IMG/VR virus record: IMGVR_UViG_3300025771_000159
Location: 1-26,259 of that record
Reading direction: 5' to 3' (one strand)
Length of the DNA stretch: 26,259 nt
Origin: a virus
Shown here: one piece after another, positions 7,197-17,970 of the stretch
How the letters are laid out: each line of letters begins with the position of its first letter
Position numbering within the stretch: position 1 is the first letter of the stretch
Translations under genes and position numbers: made by a program
Notes under the pieces: generated by a model
Told to the model about the DNA's origin: nothing
The model's database searches: none
Seen by the model: only the letters and a program-made list of their open reading frames with translations

Positions 7197-9673
7197 TTAT
7201 TCATCCTCGCTTGTAAGTCGATTAATTTTAACTCAGCCTGTTGTCTAAGTCTTTCTTTTGCAATGTCATTTTTTTCTGATGCATTCATTGCTTGTTGATC
7301 TGCTTTTTGTTTTTGTAATTGCAACTCAGCAGATTTTTCCATGGCATCTTGTTGTTCTTTAGAAGCAAACTGTTGATTTTTCAACTCTATCTCTTTATCA
7401 CGCAAGCCAAGTTCTTGTTGCCTAATAGCAACCAATGGGTCTTGTTGTTGTGGTGGTTGAATAGAAGCCAAGAACTCGGTTGAGAGTTGTGCCAAGATTG
7501 GAGAACTCATGCTTTCAATAATGCCTTGTACTTGTTGTTGTACCATCATTTGTGATTGTGGATCAAGTGTTTGTGCCTGTTGCATCATTTGTTGTATTTG
7601 TTGTTGTGCTTCAGGTGGCATTTGTTGTTCTGCTATTTGGTTAGCTAAGAATTGTAAATGTTGCATGACATGAGCAATAATCATAGATTGCAACTGTGGG
7701 TTCATTTGAACACCTTGTGTCAAAAACAAACTCTTGTGTGCTTCTATGTGTGCTTCATGATTTTGTTCTGCAAAAGCATTAGCAGGAATACCCTGCAATA
7801 AACCACTGTTTTCTATGCCTGCATCTACAGGTTTAGGAGTCATATCTTGTGGTGGCAATAACAAAGCTTCTATGTTATCCACACCAAGTGCAGAATACAT
7901 TCTGTAATAAGCCTCATATATACCCTGTGGTCCATGTATTTCAGGATTAGATTGAACCATGGTTAATAGTTCTTGTGCCATCACTATTCTTTGACTCATG
8001 GAGAATATGTTTGGATCAGATACAGGTATGACATCTACCTTCTTGCTAAAGTCTTCTAATTTTATTTCTTTTGAGCCACTACCTGTTTCATATGGATAGA
8101 CTGGTGGCAAGAATTCACCAAAGACTCTAGCCAAAATTTTAAATTCTGTTCTTTGTGAGTAATGCAATCTTTTGTGAATTGCACTCATGACTTTTGTACC
8201 CTTTTCTAATAAAGCTACAGTTGTACCAACAGGCATAGCTGCATTACTATCACCAATATTCATATCGGCAATAGATGCAAATCTTTTACCACTGTCAACC
8301 AATAATCCAAGCAAGCTAAATAAAACTCCACTTGGTTCTTTATAAGGCAATGGCATCAATGCATCACGCAAAGCACCACCCGGTGCGTCTATATCTCTAA
8401 ATTCACCCGGTTGTAAAGGAGATGCTTCATCTCTAATTCTTATGCCTCTAGCTTTAAAACCTGCTGGTAAATTAGATAAAGTACCTGCATCGATAAGCTG
8501 TCTTAAAATAGATGTTGTGGCTTTAGATAAACCACCTATCATGTGTGAAAGACCTAAACCATAAAATCCTAAGCCCGGTAAAAACTTGTACTGAACAAAA
8601 TAATTAATTTTATTTTTAATTGGATCATCAGGCTCATAGTTTCTTCTAATAGATAAAACTCTTTGTGAAGATTCGTCAATGGTAATAATGTAAGGTAATT
8701 TTAATCCTGTTGGCTCACCATTTTCATCTAAGTCCTCAAAGCCTTCTATTTCTGCAACTGTATGTATTTCATACAATCGTCTTTGTTCATCGTTATTATA
8801 CTCAGGCTCAACACCTTGTATTTTATCAATTTCTTCTGTAACCGTGTCTCGTGTTTCTACTTCACTGCCCGTTAACTCTATGTCTGCATAAAATCCTGAA
8901 AGTTGTAATTTTCTTACTTCATTGTTGCTCATAGAAACAATATGAGTTACTCGTTCTGCACTAAGCAGATCGGTTGCTTCATATGGAACTAGCAAATCTT
9001 CAGAAGGTACAAACTTTGATACAGGTCTTCTTATGGATGCATCGTAATAAACTTTTTTAAATGCACTACCTGATAATGGTAGATAAAATAACAATTGATC
9101 CAACTCAGGATCATATTCAGGCATTTCGTTCATAATGTAATAATTCATGAACTCAGCAACTCTTTCTGCTTGCATTTCTGTGTTGGCATCTCTTTGTCCA
9201 ACTATTTGTGTTTTAACAGGTCCTTGTGCAGGCAAAAGTTCTTTGTATGCTTGTGCTTGGAATTGAGTTACAGATTCAGCCAAGATAGGATGAATTACGC
9301 CACTAGAACCCTCAAAGGGTTGGCTTCTTTGTTCGTCAAACCTCATGCCAAGATATTTAAGACCGTCTGTGTAAGTCTTCATCCACTCTTTACGAGATTC
9401 TTTATCGTTTTCTACATCGTTAATTAATTTTTTGGAAATAGAACCTAAAACATAGTCATCTAAATATTCAACCAAATTAGCATCAAATGGCATTTCTTGT
9501 TCTTCTTCTTCTTGAGCTTCATCAATAATAATTTCATCATCGTTGATGGTAACCTCTAAAGATTCCATCAGTTGCTCTTCAAAGGAAGGTGCTTCTGCTT
9601 CTATATCAACAGCTTTGCCCTGATCCACAATGTCAGGATTGTCTTCTGTGCCTAATTTTCTTTCAATTGCCAT
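7193..9673 (-). CDS. Portal protein, long P22-like type
   Basis: The portal forms the dodecameric ring at the head vertex through which DNA is packaged and ejected. The 826-residue product has an acidic N-terminus, then WMKTYTDGLKYLGMRFDEQ, PFEGSSGVIHPILAESVTQF and QAYKELLPAQGPVKTQIVG, DPxLDQLLFYLPLSGSAFKK and a wing/stem region with GFYGLGLSHMIGGLSKATTS and SIADMNIGDSNAAMPVGTTV. The last 170 residues or so are Gln/Met-rich helix, like the barrel of P22-type portals (P22 gp1 is 725 residues). It follows the terminase and a 58-residue gene. No Shine-Dalgarno site is visible; TATAAT lies 8 bases before the ATG. Confidence 0.88.
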   Translation of the reverse strand: MAIERKLGTEDNPDIVDQGKAVDIEAEAPSFEEQLMESLEVTINDDEIIIDEAQEEEEQEMPFDANLVEYLDDYVLGSISKKLINDVENDKESRKEWMKTYTDGLKYLGMRFDEQRSQPFEGSSGVIHPILAESVTQFQAQAYKELLPAQGPVKTQIVGQRDANTEMQAERVAEFMNYYIMNEMPEYDPELDQLLFYLPLSGSAFKKVYYDASIRRPVSKFVPSEDLLVPYEATDLLSAERVTHIVSMSNNEVRKLQLSGFYADIELTGSEVETRDTVTEEIDKIQGVEPEYNNDEQRRLYEIHTVAEIEGFEDLDENGEPTGLKLPYIITIDESSQRVLSIRRNYEPDDPIKNKINYFVQYKFLPGLGFYGLGLSHMIGGLSKATTSILRQLIDAGTLSNLPAGFKARGIRIRDEASPLQPGEFRDIDAPGGALRDALMPLPYKEPSGVLFSLLGLLVDSGKRFASIADMNIGDSNAAMPVGTTVALLEKGTKVMSAIHKRLHYSQRTEFKILARVFGEFLPPVYPYETGSGSKEIKLEDFSKKVDVIPVSDPNIFSMSQRIVMAQELLTMVQSNPEIHGPQGIYEAYYRMYSALGVDNIEALLLPPQDMTPKPVDAGIENSGLLQGIPANAFAEQNHEAHIEAHKSLFLTQGVQMNPQLQSMIIAHVMQHLQFLANQIAEQQMPPEAQQQIQQMMQQAQTLDPQSQMMVQQQVQGIIESMSSPILAQLSTEFLASIQPPQQQDPLVAIRQQELGLRDKEIELKNQQFASKEQQDAMEKSAELQLQKQKADQQAMNASEKNDIAKERLRQQAELKLIDLQARMNK

Positions 9674-11820: not shown

Positions 11821-12285
11821 TTACAAATCTAAAGGTGTTAATTTTGGGCTTTTATTTGCTTGATCTAAACATGCTTGCAAAGATTCTTTGGTGTCTATTT
11901 CTAAAAGTTTTTCTTCTGTTTTTGCAAACTCAGTGAGGTTTTTTTCTTTGTGAAATGGCATAAATATTACTTTGTTTAAAGGCAAAGCCACAAGACAAAA
12001 CAAATCTATTTGACCGTTACCATACCTTTCATCTGAATCTTGCCTTTCTTTTTTTGCTGTTCTTCTACCACTGCGTAACTCCCAACGATAATAATCTTTG
12101 CCCCTTCTTAAATAGGTAGAGTTAGTGGTCTTTACTTGTATTCTGTATAACTTGTTTTGATGATCTAAAATTAAATCGCTTTTATGTGCTTGAGGTGCAA
12201 GAATTACGGAGTCGCAAAATCTCAGCAAGTAGGATGCTGCTAAATATTCACCTGCTAACGCTATGCGTGTAGTAGCATGTGGCAA
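11821..12285 (-). CDS. PD-(D/E)XK nuclease, TTG start
   Basis: The 154-residue product has the layout of a PD-(D/E)XK endonuclease, similar to the PDDEXK_5 type: GEYLAASYLL with E13, then SDLILD with D37 and YRIQVKTT with Q50-V51-K52. These are the metal-binding and catalytic positions. It probably cuts or resolves DNA during replication, packaging or host DNA degradation; which one is open. No ATG fits; translation starts at TTG 12283-12285, strongly supported by AGGAG five bases upstream, overlapping the endolysin stop. Location between lysis genes and terminase would suit a packaging-related nuclease, but that is inference. Confidence 0.8.
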   Translation of the reverse strand: MPHATTRIALAGEYLAASYLLRFCDSVILAPQAHKSDLILDHQNKLYRIQVKTTNSTYLRRGKDYYRWELRSGRRTAKKERQDSDERYGNGQIDLFCLVALPLNKVIFMPFHKEKNLTEFAKTEEKLLEIDTKESLQACLDQANKSPKLTPLDL

Positions 12286-13789: not shown

Positions 13790-15937
13790 CTAAAGAGTTG
13801 GTTGCATGTTTTTTAAATCAGTTAAAGTTTTAATGCTTTGTCCTGCCATGCTATAAAATGCCTCAGTATTATCTGATAGTTTGTTGTTAGTATAAATGTT
13901 TTTTGGCTTATACCAAAATTCTTTTTGCGGTATGGATACAAGCCTGTAATTGTTAAAGTTTGGCAAAAAGCCCATCACCGCTATAATTGCATTCTCTGAC
14001 CCATATTCACCAGTTTCTTCTTGTTTGGCTATAACTTGTTCTTGAGCCATTTGTAAGTTTTGAGCAATAATATTTTCAACCGTTGTCTCTGAATCAGACT
14101 CAACAGATGCAATAGAGGTGTCCATTTGATCTTGAGTTGTTTCTGTTGTAACGGTAGCAACTGCTACCTCCGTTGTTGTTTCTGTTTCTACTGCTGTTGA
14201 ACTAAAAGAGGAGTCTGATACAGACATGCTACTCATGTCTAAAACTTGATTGGTTTGTGCGGTAGAGGATGCAAATTGATCTGAAATGCTTGGTGAGCTA
14301 CTTATGCTCATGCTTGTATTAGACGAAGAAGCAAAAACATTGCCTGATGCAAGGCTACCACCAGTTGCATGTACTGAACTGCCTGAGTCAGTTCCACTGA
14401 TACTATTTGTGGCTGTTGTAATTGTTGCAGAAACAATTTTTAAAGCTATTTCTCTGCTTATTGAGCTTTCACCTTTTGCATTCTCTCTTTCTGCAACCTC
14501 AAACTCTTCTTCAAATACATCTTCTTCTATAATTTCTTCTCTCTCTATTCTTTCTTCTTCAATTTCAGCCTCAGCCATGCGTTCTTCTATGGCTTCAAAC
14601 ACTTCTTCAACAACTTCCTCTTCAAATATTTCTTCTACAAACTCTTCTTCAGGTTCTTCTAAAATTGCAATTTCTTCTTCTCTTCTAGTTTCTTCTTCAA
14701 ACCATTCTTCCAATTGGTCTATGGTTTCAAGCTCAATAAATGTTTCAGGCTCACGATAATCTTCTACTAAAAAAGTTTCTTGAAAAATAAATTCTTCTAC
14801 CATGAGATCGTCTGTGGGCGTAAATATTTCTTCATCACGCAAAGGTGTGTCATGCACAGAAACAAAAGGATCGTGAAATTCCTCTTGTGGAAACATTTGC
14901 TCAAAAATTATTTCTTCTTCAAATGTAAGTTCTTGTTCTCCGTTGTTTTGTTCTTCAAACTCATAAACATACTCTTCAAACATTGGCTCTTCTTCGTATC
15001 CAAGCTGTTCTTCTTCCTCGTATCCGTAGTTAAACTGGTCTTCTTGAAAATACGCAACATCATTTTCTTGACTGTAACCTTGGCAGAAAGGACCGTACTG
15101 TGGATCAAGGTTGCACTGTAAATCATCATATGCATCCCAATAATATGGACATGACTCAGAATATAGTTGGTCAATGTTACATTGTTGAGTTTGGTAAGCA
15201 TCGGCATAGCCTGAGCAACTGGTATCATTTAAGGGGTTGCTACAATCAACCACCTCTCCTACAAAAATAGAACCGCCATTTTCTAGCGTTTGATTCTCGC
15301 CTATATTGTTCCAATCTTGATTAACACAGGTTGTTGAGTTAATAATTCCTGTATTACATTCATCGTGAAAGTAATAAGTTTCCAATTCTTTTTCGTTGCC
15401 CTGTATGCCTATAAAAACATCGTGATCTTGAATATCTAATTGCCCATAGATAGCTTCATAAGTGTTATTGGGGTACAACCAAAGCTCGAAAGTGTTTTTA
15501 GAATCTCTATAGTATTCCCACATTTCATACCAACCAAAGATAATTTTATCATCAAAACTTTTGGCTAACATCGAAGAGTTCTCACCCATAATAAGATCGG
15601 TCCAAAAAGGATACATTGTATAGTTGGTGTTGGGAGATGGGCTAGGGTTGTATTGCGTGCAGTTCTTTTCCCATGTGTCGACTGTTGATAATGAGCCTAA
15701 AATTAAACAACCATTACTAGCCATGTAACCTTGGTTAAAAGTTTCGCCAAAAAAATTAAAGTCAAAGCCAAAGTTAAACACTTGAGATGTGCCGTCATCA
15801 CTGGCTGACATATCAGTGGCGTTATCTAACCGCAAATCCCAAAGTTGATTGTTGGATGTAACTGTAGTGGTTACTTGACTAAAAAGACTAACGCTTAAGA
15901 GACACGCTACTGCGTAGCATAAAATTCTTTTTTGCAT
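13790..15937 (-). CDS. Exported 715-residue protein with nidogen-like domain and Glu-rich region
   Basis: A signal peptide (MQKRILCYAVACLLSVSLFS) leads into a domain with VFNFGFDFNFFGETFNQGYM (53-72), SNGCLILGS and FELWLYPNNTYEAIYGQLDI (150-169), which resembles nidogen-type (NIDO) extracellular domains. Residues 231-288 carry eight cysteines in a repeat-like pattern with CSGYADAYQTQQC, then CPYYWDAY and CQGY. Residues 306-490 are extraordinarily Glu-rich, 500-620 Ser/Thr-rich. The end has FLPNFNNYRLVSIPQKEFWY and KNIYTNNKLSDN, a block I recall from other marine phage proteins. It is probably exported to the periplasm or cell surface. Its start overlaps the upstream stop by 31 bases. Function unknown. 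Confidence 0.75.
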   Translation of the reverse strand: MQKRILCYAVACLLSVSLFSQVTTTVTSNNQLWDLRLDNATDMSASDDGTSQVFNFGFDFNFFGETFNQGYMASNGCLILGSLSTVDTWEKNCTQYNPSPSPNTNYTMYPFWTDLIMGENSSMLAKSFDDKIIFGWYEMWEYYRDSKNTFELWLYPNNTYEAIYGQLDIQDHDVFIGIQGNEKELETYYFHDECNTGIINSTTCVNQDWNNIGENQTLENGGSIFVGEVVDCSNPLNDTSCSGYADAYQTQQCNIDQLYSESCPYYWDAYDDLQCNLDPQYGPFCQGYSQENDVAYFQEDQFNYGYEEEEQLGYEEEPMFEEYVYEFEEQNNGEQELTFEEEIIFEQMFPQEEFHDPFVSVHDTPLRDEEIFTPTDDLMVEEFIFQETFLVEDYREPETFIELETIDQLEEWFEEETRREEEIAILEEPEEEFVEEIFEEEVVEEVFEAIEERMAEAEIEEERIEREEIIEEDVFEEEFEVAERENAKGESSISREIALKIVSATITTATNSISGTDSGSSVHATGGSLASGNVFASSSNTSMSISSSPSISDQFASSTAQTNQVLDMSSMSVSDSSFSSTAVETETTTEVAVATVTTETTQDQMDTSIASVESDSETTVENIIAQNLQMAQEQVIAKQEETGEYGSENAIIAVMGFLPNFNNYRLVSIPQKEFWYKPKNIYTNNKLSDNTEAFYSMAGQSIKTLTDLKNMQPTL

Positions 15938-17016
15938 TGTTTGCTTGTTTTGGTTTTTCTTGTATAAGTTTTTTTAACTAAGCCCACAACGTCTTTATTA
16001 ATTTTATCTCTGTTCGGGTTTCTATCATGTGTGCATTGCTGTATAAAAAGTTTTTCTTGTTCTTTGGCATCGGGTCTTTTGGACTTATTTTCAGCCCAAG
16101 CCATAGTTGCTTCTGCACCTATTTTACCTTGGTAAGGGCAAGGAGTACCTGCCATTTCCATGGCTTTAAATACTCTTGGGTCTTGACAAAGTATAGACAC
16201 TGAAGCGACTTTCATACCAGTATCATACAAATACTTTGAAAGTTTTAAGCGTTCACAGTTCTCGTCAGTCACAGTTGCTCCTGTAGAGAACCCAAATACT
16301 TGCCCTTGAAAAGCTCCTGACCTACCAACGGTACATAGGTCTTGAGAATAACTCATAATGCTAGGTGCTATCGCAGAGGCAGGGGGTGCCTTGCTCTTAA
16401 CATTTTGGTTTATTGTTTGTGTCGAATTGGATTCGTTAATGTTTCGGTTCGTATTATCAGACCTAGAATTGTTTTCGTTTACATTTCTATTGTCGGTTGT
16501 GACATTTGAGTCAGAAGTCGATTGATTTATGTTAGTGTTTTGATTTGTGTTATTACTGGTCGAAGTTGAATTATTTGTGTTCGTAACATTTTGATTTACG
16601 GTTGAATTTACCGTGGAATTCGATGTTGAATTAGAAGTATTAACATTGTTGTTTGTATTAACATTGTTTGAGGTCGAAGTATTTACATTTGTGTTTGCGT
16701 TGGTCGACACATTTGTGTTTGAGTTTGTATTGGTTGAAACATTGGTATTGGTCGATACATTGGTATTAGAATTCGTATTGGTGTTCGTGTTGGTGTTTTG
16801 ATTGGTGTTGGTGTTCGTATTGGTATTTGTGGTTGTGGTTGTATTAACCGTATCCAAACTATTGTTTTCGCAATACTGAGTACCGTTGACACAAGCCGTG
16901 CCTGATTGTTGGCTTGACTGTGCGTTTGCATTAACAGAAAAGCCAATAACAAGGGTTACCAAAAAGCCTATAGCAGACCAAATGATTAATTTATCGTGTT
17001 GTTTTTGCCCGTTCAT
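15907..17016 (-). CDS. Exported Asn/Thr-rich repeat protein with Cys-containing C-terminal domain
   Basis: The 369-residue protein has a hydrophobic segment (residues 11-28) ending in the A-N-A signal-peptidase site, then C42 and C49, then a low-complexity Asn/Thr/Ser/Val region (about 57-205) made of NT and NVST-type units, then a compact domain (about 218-305) with SQDLCTVGRSGAFQGQVFGF and cysteines C228, C254, C277 and C293, then a Lys-rich end. I recall the C-terminal domain from other phage genomes without known function. Export and a surface or periplasmic role are inferred. No Shine-Dalgarno site is present; an extended -10 promoter lies just upstream, so the message may be nearly leaderless. 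Confidence 0.75.
   Translation of the reverse strand: MNGQKQHDKLIIWSAIGFLVTLVIGFSVNANAQSSQQSGTACVNGTQYCENNSLDTVNTTTTTNTNTNTNTNQNTNTNTNTNSNTNVSTNTNVSTNTNSNTNVSTNANTNVNTSTSNNVNTNNNVNTSNSTSNSTVNSTVNQNVTNTNNSTSTSNNTNQNTNINQSTSDSNVTTDNRNVNENNSRSDNTNRNINESNSTQTINQNVKSKAPPASAIAPSIMSYSQDLCTVGRSGAFQGQVFGFSTGATVTDENCERLKLSKYLYDTGMKVASVSILCQDPRVFKAMEMAGTPCPYQGKIGAEATMAWAENKSKRPDAKEQEKLFIQQCTHDRNPNRDKINKDVVGLVKKTYTRKTKTSKQCKKEFYATQ
16402..16848. repeat. Degenerate hexanucleotide tandem repeat coding for Asn-Thr runs
   Basis: The DNA is built of TTNGTN-like units (for example TTGGTGTTCGTGTTGGTG) repeated with substitutions over about 450 bases on the plus strand, encoding the NT/NS/NVST runs of the exported protein. 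Such repeats can change length by slippage, in steps of six bases that keep the frame. Confidence 0.8.
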
Positions 17017-17089: not shown

Positions 17090-17109
17090 AAGTGTTGACT
17101 TGAACACTT
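17090..17109. promoter_or_regulatory. Operator-like palindrome over the -35 of the plus-strand gene
   Basis: AAGTGTT (17090-17096) and AACACTT (17103-17109) form a perfect 7-bp inverted repeat with a 6-base spacer that covers the TTGACT -35 hexamer. A further AGTGT half-site lies at 17114-17118 against the -10. A dimeric repressor bound here would block RNA polymerase. The binding protein is unknown. Confidence 0.55.
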
Positions 17110-17123
17110 TACTAGTGTAAGAT
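17095..17123 (+). promoter_or_regulatory. Sigma-70-like promoter of the lone plus-strand gene
   Basis: TTGACT (17095-17100, five of six to TTGACA), a 17-base spacer and TAAGAT (17118-17123, four of six to TATAAT) form a plausible promoter, with transcription starting near 17130. The palindrome at 17090-17109 overlaps it. Confidence 0.6.
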
Positions 17124-17180
17124 TAAGGATAGGTAAAGAAAAAGGTTCTTTATCATAAAACCTCATATAGGAGAATCAAT

Positions 17181-17510
17181 ATGAAAACCACACTACAAAA
17201 GTGTTACGAAAAAATGGCTATGATCAAACACAATTCTGATCAACTAAGGTTGATGGCAGGAAAGTTTGATAATGGCGAGCCTGCTGTAATCTTGGTGTTA
17301 GATCAAGATGGCGGTGGAACTCATGTTACACCTGTAGCGATTATGCTAGATCAAGCTAAGGTCGATGCCTTAAATCCTGACTGGATATATTCCAAAAAGA
17401 TTTACAAGGTAATCGAAGATGCAACTCGCATTGACAAGAGAACCAAGGTTGGTGACTTTGCAGGTCAGTTCATCATGATTGATGAGTTGTTTGACAAGGC
17501 TGACTTTTAA
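17181..17510 (+). CDS. Unknown 109-residue protein, only plus-strand gene
   Basis: I do not recognise this protein. It begins MKTTLQKCYEKMAMIKHNSD, has a hydrophobic strand followed by an Asp/Gly turn and histidine (PAVILVLDQDGGGTHVTPVA, residues 34-53), then a helix-rich half (IMLDQAKVDALNPDWIYSKK) and an acidic end (FIMIDELFDKADF). It lacks membrane segments and signal peptide and is probably a small alpha/beta cytosolic protein. AGGAG (17169-17173) lies 7 bases before the ATG. It has its own promoter, palindrome and terminator and is opposed to all neighbours, as in a phage moron or a host-control gene. Roles such as immunity or anti-defence are open guesses. Confidence 0.85.
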   Translation: MKTTLQKCYEKMAMIKHNSDQLRLMAGKFDNGEPAVILVLDQDGGGTHVTPVAIMLDQAKVDALNPDWIYSKKIYKVIEDATRIDKRTKVGDFAGQFIMIDELFDKADF

Positions 17511-17531
17511 TAGCTAGCCACTTTTGATAAG

Positions 17532-17554
17532 CCCCTCTTTATGAGGGGTTTTTT
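17532..17554 (+). terminator. Intrinsic terminator of the plus-strand gene
   Basis: CCCCTC (17532-17537), a TTTAT loop and GAGGGG (17543-17548) are followed by six T (17549-17554). It lies 21 bases past the plus-strand stop. The hairpin overlaps the last codons and TAA of the convergent nuclease gene, whose 3' end thus doubles as the terminator. On the minus strand no T run follows. Confidence 0.88.
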
Positions 17555-17970
17555 ATTTCTTGATACACGCCAAGCTCAAGAAGTTTTTGTTTGTTGATTT
17601 CATGCTCTGCCTCAACATCATTTTTGCTTTGCCCAAAATATCGAACAGCCAAGTGTTTTCTTACTAGCTCTTCGTTAATGTTAATTGAGTCTACAAGTAT
17701 CTCGCCTAAGACACGACCATATTTACCTTTGGAATCTTTTAATTTGGTTCTAACAATAATTTCATTGCCGTTAGCTATTGCATTTTCAACAAAAACTTTA
17801 GCTAGTTTGCCTCTAGCTTTTTCGTCTTTGTTTCTTGTGCGACACTCAGGCGTGTCAATCCCATAAAGGCGTACACGACACTTGTGATAGATATTAAAAC
17901 CAAGAGAAATATTAAGGTCAGAAGTATCTCCGTCAACCACCTTAATGACTTCGCAAGCATACTCGTACAT
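17539..17970 (-). CDS. Thermonuclease-like (SNase family) nuclease
   Basis: The 143-residue protein matches the staphylococcal nuclease fold: KVVDGDTSDL with D15, RVRLYGIDTPE with R34, D39 and E42, and GKYGRVLGEI with R86. These correspond to D21, R35, D40, E43 and R87 of the Staphylococcus enzyme, so calcium-dependent cleavage of DNA or RNA is expected. Unlike secreted relatives it has no signal peptide and should act in the cytoplasm, for example on host DNA. Its ATG overlaps the upstream TAA as TAATG. The last codons are inside the terminator of the convergent plus-strand gene. Confidence 0.9.
   Translation of the reverse strand: MYEYACEVIKVVDGDTSDLNISLGFNIYHKCRVRLYGIDTPECRTRNKDEKARGKLAKVFVENAIANGNEIIVRTKLKDSKGKYGRVLGEILVDSININEELVRKHLAVRYFGQSKNDVEAEHEINKQKLLELGVYQEIKNPS

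Follow-up and report, generated by a model that had tools for sequence, protein, structure and literature searches.

The block at 17.09-17.55 kb of the virus record IMGVR_UViG_3300025771_000159, whose 26,259 bases are referred to here as the window, is almost certainly a moron as judged from sequence comparison with its relatives. It is a self-contained cassette of a promoter, a leader, one gene for a 109-residue protein and a terminator, and it bears the marks of a mobile add-on gene, retained for some useful effect. Comparison shows that the cassette entered by recombination, separating two late genes that lie side by side in relatives. The protein family is described in no library that we searched, and the kind of element to which it belongs is already known.

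The inverted gene and its control signals

The window derives from a tailed phage. The nearest counterpart of its large terminase is that of phage 023Pt_psg01 (64%), followed by those of the pelagiphages HTVC027P (58%) and HTVC023P (55%). The ORF for the 109-residue protein sits inverted among late genes on the minus strand. An initial annotation of the sequence had placed every other gene on the minus strand, which holds for the plausible genes of the window and fails for the longer relative G003 (45.8 kb), where further plus-strand ORFs occur outside the late module. The ORF, promoter, repeat, ribosome site and terminator that it described were each found, at the positions given below, and the cassette is confirmed as real. 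A leader hairpin that it had missed constitutes a second inverted repeat in the cassette. The features of the region are as follows:

17090..17109: perfect 7-bp inverted repeat AAGTGTT-6-AACACTT (arms 17090-17096 and 17103-17109, gap 6 bp) overlapping the -35, a possible operator from its sequence
17095..17123, plus: sigma-70-type promoter TTGACT-17-TAAGAT (-35 TTGACT 17095-17100, spacer 17 bp, -10 TAAGAT 17118-17123) matching 9/12 consensus positions
17114..17118, plus: putative extra half-site AGTGT that ends at the -10, seen in the sequence only
17132..17154, plus: 5' leader hairpin of 9 bp, predicted by RNA folding
17169..17173, plus: ribosome-binding site AGGAG, recognised from sequence, with GGAGAAT invariant in 10 aligned leaders
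17181..17510, plus: gene for the 109-aa orphan protein, supported by 61 related loci in IMG/VR, dN/dS and AlphaFold
17529..17554, plus: intrinsic terminator with a 9-bp stem (stem 17529-17551, T6 17549-17554), kept in all near relatives that reach that end
17539..17970, minus: right neighbour, staphylococcal-nuclease-like (SNase; PF00565, E 9e-15; empty-site comparison)
15907..17016, minus: left neighbour, 369-aa Asn/Thr-rich gene (phrog_20531, a family with no assigned function, E 3e-16; empty-site comparison)

Taken by itself the promoter is at chance level, with 29 promoter-like sites against 23.7 expected (shuffle P ~0.5), and 7-bp inverted repeats are not rare, since the window holds 33 of them against 12-26 in five shuffles. 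The arrangement GTGTT-N6-AACAC occurs a single time in the window, and the terminator has the longest stem among nine sites detected in 8 kb (4.7 expected). Promoter, terminator and ORF are lifted above chance because they are conserved among relatives. Ten full-length close relatives with 88-94% identity, as well as fragments, were found in IMG/VR, and in all close relatives the gene opposes the late genes and the promoter is kept, as is the terminator where the contig extends to it.

Exchange of the cassette and its insertion sites

The initial annotation had recognised the layout of a moron and had pointed to synteny in related phages as a check. This reading is strongly supported, as the cassette is present or absent as a unit among relatives. 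Even in the close relatives the genes flanking it differ on one or both sides. When L010 and L011 are compared, 87-100% nucleotide identity extends over ~500 bp, roughly between positions -160 and +360 relative to the ATG, while the 37-65% identity outside this block on both sides equals the alignment background, leaving a promoter-to-terminator block between unrelated flanks. The left-hand sequence of the window diverges from that of L004/L005 up to just upstream of the promoter, and the right-hand sequences of L003 and L004 diverge just past the terminator. The family gene is present in one copy per record.

The insertion site in the window is bordered by the SNase gene on the right and the 369-aa gene on the left. 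For an empty-site comparison we fetched 80 relatives of the SNase gene. The site is empty in 41 of the 80, where SNase overlaps the homologue of the left neighbour by 7-49 nt. The cassette is present in seven, and the same flanking pair is found in four of these, 501-523 bp apart. Another co-oriented gene lies within 120 bases of SNase in 26 relatives, one shows a longer interval before an unrelated gene, and in the remaining five (L232, L233, L235, L236 and L238) the left-neighbour homologue is located 382-385 bp from SNase. We read this ~380-bp gap in two of them, L232 and L238, and it contains a different, co-oriented gene of ~127 residues (MNDGQGRFGGDMDRNEVEM...), so the position seems to take cargo repeatedly. 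Since the stem of the terminator reaches into the final codons of the opposing nuclease gene, the insertion breakpoint lies inside the 3' end of that gene. As to the left neighbour itself, the 369-aa protein has a long Asn/Thr/Ser repeat tract behind a signal-like N terminus, and its homologues are common next to the nuclease gene in relatives.

More distant members were obtained by a profile search of terminase-linked loci, which gave homologues at 43-54% identity, and by a scan with a wider alignment that raised the family to 58 and then 61 loci in IMG/VR. They fall into five kinds of placement, in both orientations:

Placement 1, inverted, beside the nuclease gene: the window group, and L113/L114 at 50%
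Placement 2, inverted, beside the small terminase gene: L112
Placement 3, inverted, flanked by the major capsid gene and the head gene that follows it: L079, L117 and L119-L121, with promoter and terminator present
Placement 4, co-oriented, between FecR and CHASE2-adenylate cyclase in a phage curli island: L031, L042, L115, L135 and others, the largest group
Placement 5, co-oriented, among small genes clustered upstream of the small terminase gene: L124, L132 and L136

These five placement states require at least four changes on a tree built from 23 members. The changes of place and orientation add to the support for the moron layout, as do the occupied and empty sites. They also set aside the arrangement that the initial annotation had named as speaking against it, namely one orientation in all relatives within a plus-strand operon. 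In addition to the site in the window, where the insertion separates genes that are adjacent in relatives, two further insertion points have empty counterparts. At the curli position FecR and the CHASE2-cyclase gene are separated by 392-841 bp where the family gene is present, as against -3 to +1 bp in five relatives whose position is empty (L069, L094, L097, L099 and L101). At the capsid position the capsid gene and the next gene lie 637 bp apart in five loci that carry the family gene, and usually 50-200 bp apart in those that do not.

The curli (T8SS) island is known from HTVC023P-type phages (PMC9599517). It was seen at 35136-38401 of G003 (L017-L019) and at 2838-8351 of L042, with genes for CsgF, CsgG, a curlin-like repeat protein and FecR, and in L042 also the CHASE2-adenylate cyclase; the matching place in the window is occupied by the 715-aa and 369-aa genes. 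Within this island, relatives of the 109-residue protein are encoded between FecR and the adenylate cyclase, but the family gene is no known curli component and also occurs without curli genes near it, as in the window.

Candidate morons have been described in phage 0305phi8-36 (PMC2147016) and in Serratia phage eta (PMC3918226). Our cassette resembles phage morons in being a single, transcriptionally isolated gene with its own promoter and terminator, sometimes inverted, and acquired apart from its neighbours, and it differs from them in that its family is undescribed and is recorded in five placements, with sites both occupied and empty. Many described morons are carried by temperate phages. 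Here, no integrase (PF00589) was found in seven records including contigs of 58 and 62 kb, records that may be incomplete, and a lysogenic role, which had been offered as one option for the gene, is thus unlikely.

Conservation of the promoter, the repeat and the leader

The promoter of the cassette is conserved across near and distant relatives, though in the window it is a candidate that does not reach significance alone. A terminator of its own accompanies the gene in the inverted groups and is lacking in the co-oriented group, some members of which also have no immediate promoter; autonomy is therefore not universal. The perfect palindrome is retained in the near relatives L002-L009, and L113/L114 (51% protein identity) keep it as GTGTT-6-AACAC. 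It has become degenerate in L010/L011, and in the co-oriented group the left half alone persists. The AAGTGTTGAC core is conserved better than the palindrome, the full repeat not being universal, and is found upstream of window-group and curli-group members alike; in front of the distant homologues of the latter it heads promoters matching 11/12 consensus positions.

In some loci of the curli group another small ORF follows the AAGTGTTGAC promoter as the first gene, ahead of the family gene. These ORFs differ among L138, L148, L129, L133, L143 and L146, and include a zinc-ribbon-like ORF of 75 aa (L148) and one of 144 aa (L138), so the promoter site seems to accept varied small genes. The AAGTGTTGAC core was also seen before a 99-aa gene (MARTR..EETYDQMIARYRKD) in the non-structural region of G003 (7355-7720, minus) and G002 (31665-32030, plus), where it is arranged as a direct repeat, AAGTGTTCAC-AAGTGTTGAC.

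The leader hairpin is present in the inverted groups, with a z-score of -2.1 in the window; four near relatives give -3.1 to -3.7. We make no claim for a riboregulator, because the hairpin is confined to the inverted groups, being absent from the co-oriented ones, and is broken in L011. An Rfam search of 16.9-17.7 kb gave no match.

The AAGTGTT/AACACTT repeat may allow a putative regulator to close the promoter later. An operator-like repeat lying across its own promoter could also suggest that the protein itself controls phage expression, acting on its own promoter or on neighbouring cargo such as the curli island with FecR and adenylate cyclase, and the position of the largest group of relatives between FecR and the CHASE2-cyclase in that island (PMC9599517) points in the same direction. 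We consider such a regulatory gene unlikely, however, as the protein is acidic and matches no DNA-binding family, members near capsid or terminase genes have no curli genes nearby, and relatives retain the FecR and cyclase genes without the family gene.

The protein and its possible role

The protein had not been recognised from its sequence in the initial annotation, and likewise profile and structure searches match it to no known family. Family searches were run with the window protein and with nine or 23 family members. No significant match came from Pfam, NCBIfam, PHROGs or PADLOC (best PHROGs match E 0.07), and for the anti-phage defence proteins in PADLOC there was no match up to E 5. 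The best sequence matches in the PDB (E 0.04) are unrelated S-layer or peptidase chains. No homologue was found in annotated phages by tblastn with queries from five members, or in bacterial and archaeal species genomes, and the best profile score in the records of HTVC023P, HTVC027P and 023Pt_psg01 (50 kb each) was E 0.005 at 12 bits, which is not credible.

AlphaFold predicts an alpha-beta-beta-beta-alpha-alpha fold for the window protein (pLDDT 90.1), and the models of two members that are 45% identical concur in a helix, three strands and helices (pLDDT 90 and 88). Since Foldseek gave no match at E 0.001 against PDB and BFVD, and the best VIA Z was 2.8, we can name no relative of this fold, a result that does not in itself prove the fold to be new. 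In the second AlphaFold model the beta-beta-beta-alpha arrangement is reminiscent of PC4/YdbC-like proteins, and several PC4-type rows appeared with VIA Z 2.1-2.5 over 39-62 residues, scores that are at background. In contrast to those proteins, the family matches PC4 neither in Pfam nor in a profile-profile comparison, and a PC4/YdbC reading as a ssDNA-binding protein was dropped (no PF02229 match at E 10; hhalign probability 0.1%).

It is clear from the coding sequences that the protein is under purifying selection, with dN/dS of 0.04-0.16 in the window group. An N-terminal TLQK.YEK and residues P51, Q58, L64, P66, R87, F93 and F104 are invariant in 23 members. A neutral or selfish passenger that spreads by recombination without benefit might be expected to vary in its place and to be missing from most near relatives, both of which are observed. 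We nevertheless regard this as very unlikely in view of the strong selection and of invariant residues among members that are only 40-50% identical, and because the cassette holds no nuclease, integrase or transposase to drive its spread.

The protein is acidic (pI 4.2-5.6) and of cytosolic type, and when the sequence was read by eye no signal peptide or transmembrane segment was apparent. The latter argues against a factor for superinfection exclusion or lysis timing that is made from its own promoter and acts on envelope or lysis proteins. Such roles are frequent among the lone, autonomously transcribed genes of other phages, and a lysozyme gene is only a few genes away in the window; other members, however, are distant from lysis genes, on the capsid or terminase side, and we judge this explanation marginally less probable than the regulatory one.

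We favor instead a host-directed role, which seems to fit best with a small soluble protein of patchy presence and strong constraint. Host RNA polymerase would transcribe the cassette from its sigma-70-type promoter against the late operon, so the protein could be produced before or apart from late expression, and the terminator would prevent the transcript from entering the opposing SNase gene. Early expression is plausible given the host-type promoter, the position of the L124/L136 homologues among clustered small genes upstream of the terminase gene, and published RNA-seq of HTVC027P, where gp30, gp33 and gp34 have expression clusters to themselves (PMC12753301). A further point for early timing is that the AAGTGTTGAC core, with 11/12 promoters, stands ahead of distant homologues and also of one non-structural gene in G002/G003. 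The HTVC027P genes gp30 (ArfA), gp33 and gp34, which are on the minus strand of the record, are comparable to the family gene in being small genes of a related phage that oppose most of the genome and have their own timing (PMC12753301), but they lie near the small terminase gene and no sequence relation to the family was detected in the record.

If the block is a moron, the protein probably has an early, host-directed function, most likely on a host target, for example in host takeover or counter-defence. The account as a whole, combining the moron with transcription by the host polymerase and an early host-directed protein, seems to us equally probable. A more far-reaching proposal is that HTVC023P-like marine podoviruses have a roaming family of early host-directed proteins of which this one is the first to be described, and that it has a new fold and acts on a target in abundant marine bacteria; this we put forward as tentative and rather doubtful. 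Carriage as a unit, several landing places and strong purifying selection make the protein a good candidate for a real host interaction; the occupied and empty sites offer ready natural comparisons, and a small soluble protein is directly testable.

A further gene of the window, at 11821-12285 on the minus strand, is PD-(D/E)XK nuclease-like (PF11645, E 5e-8); it adjoins the lysozyme gene and is kept in relatives.
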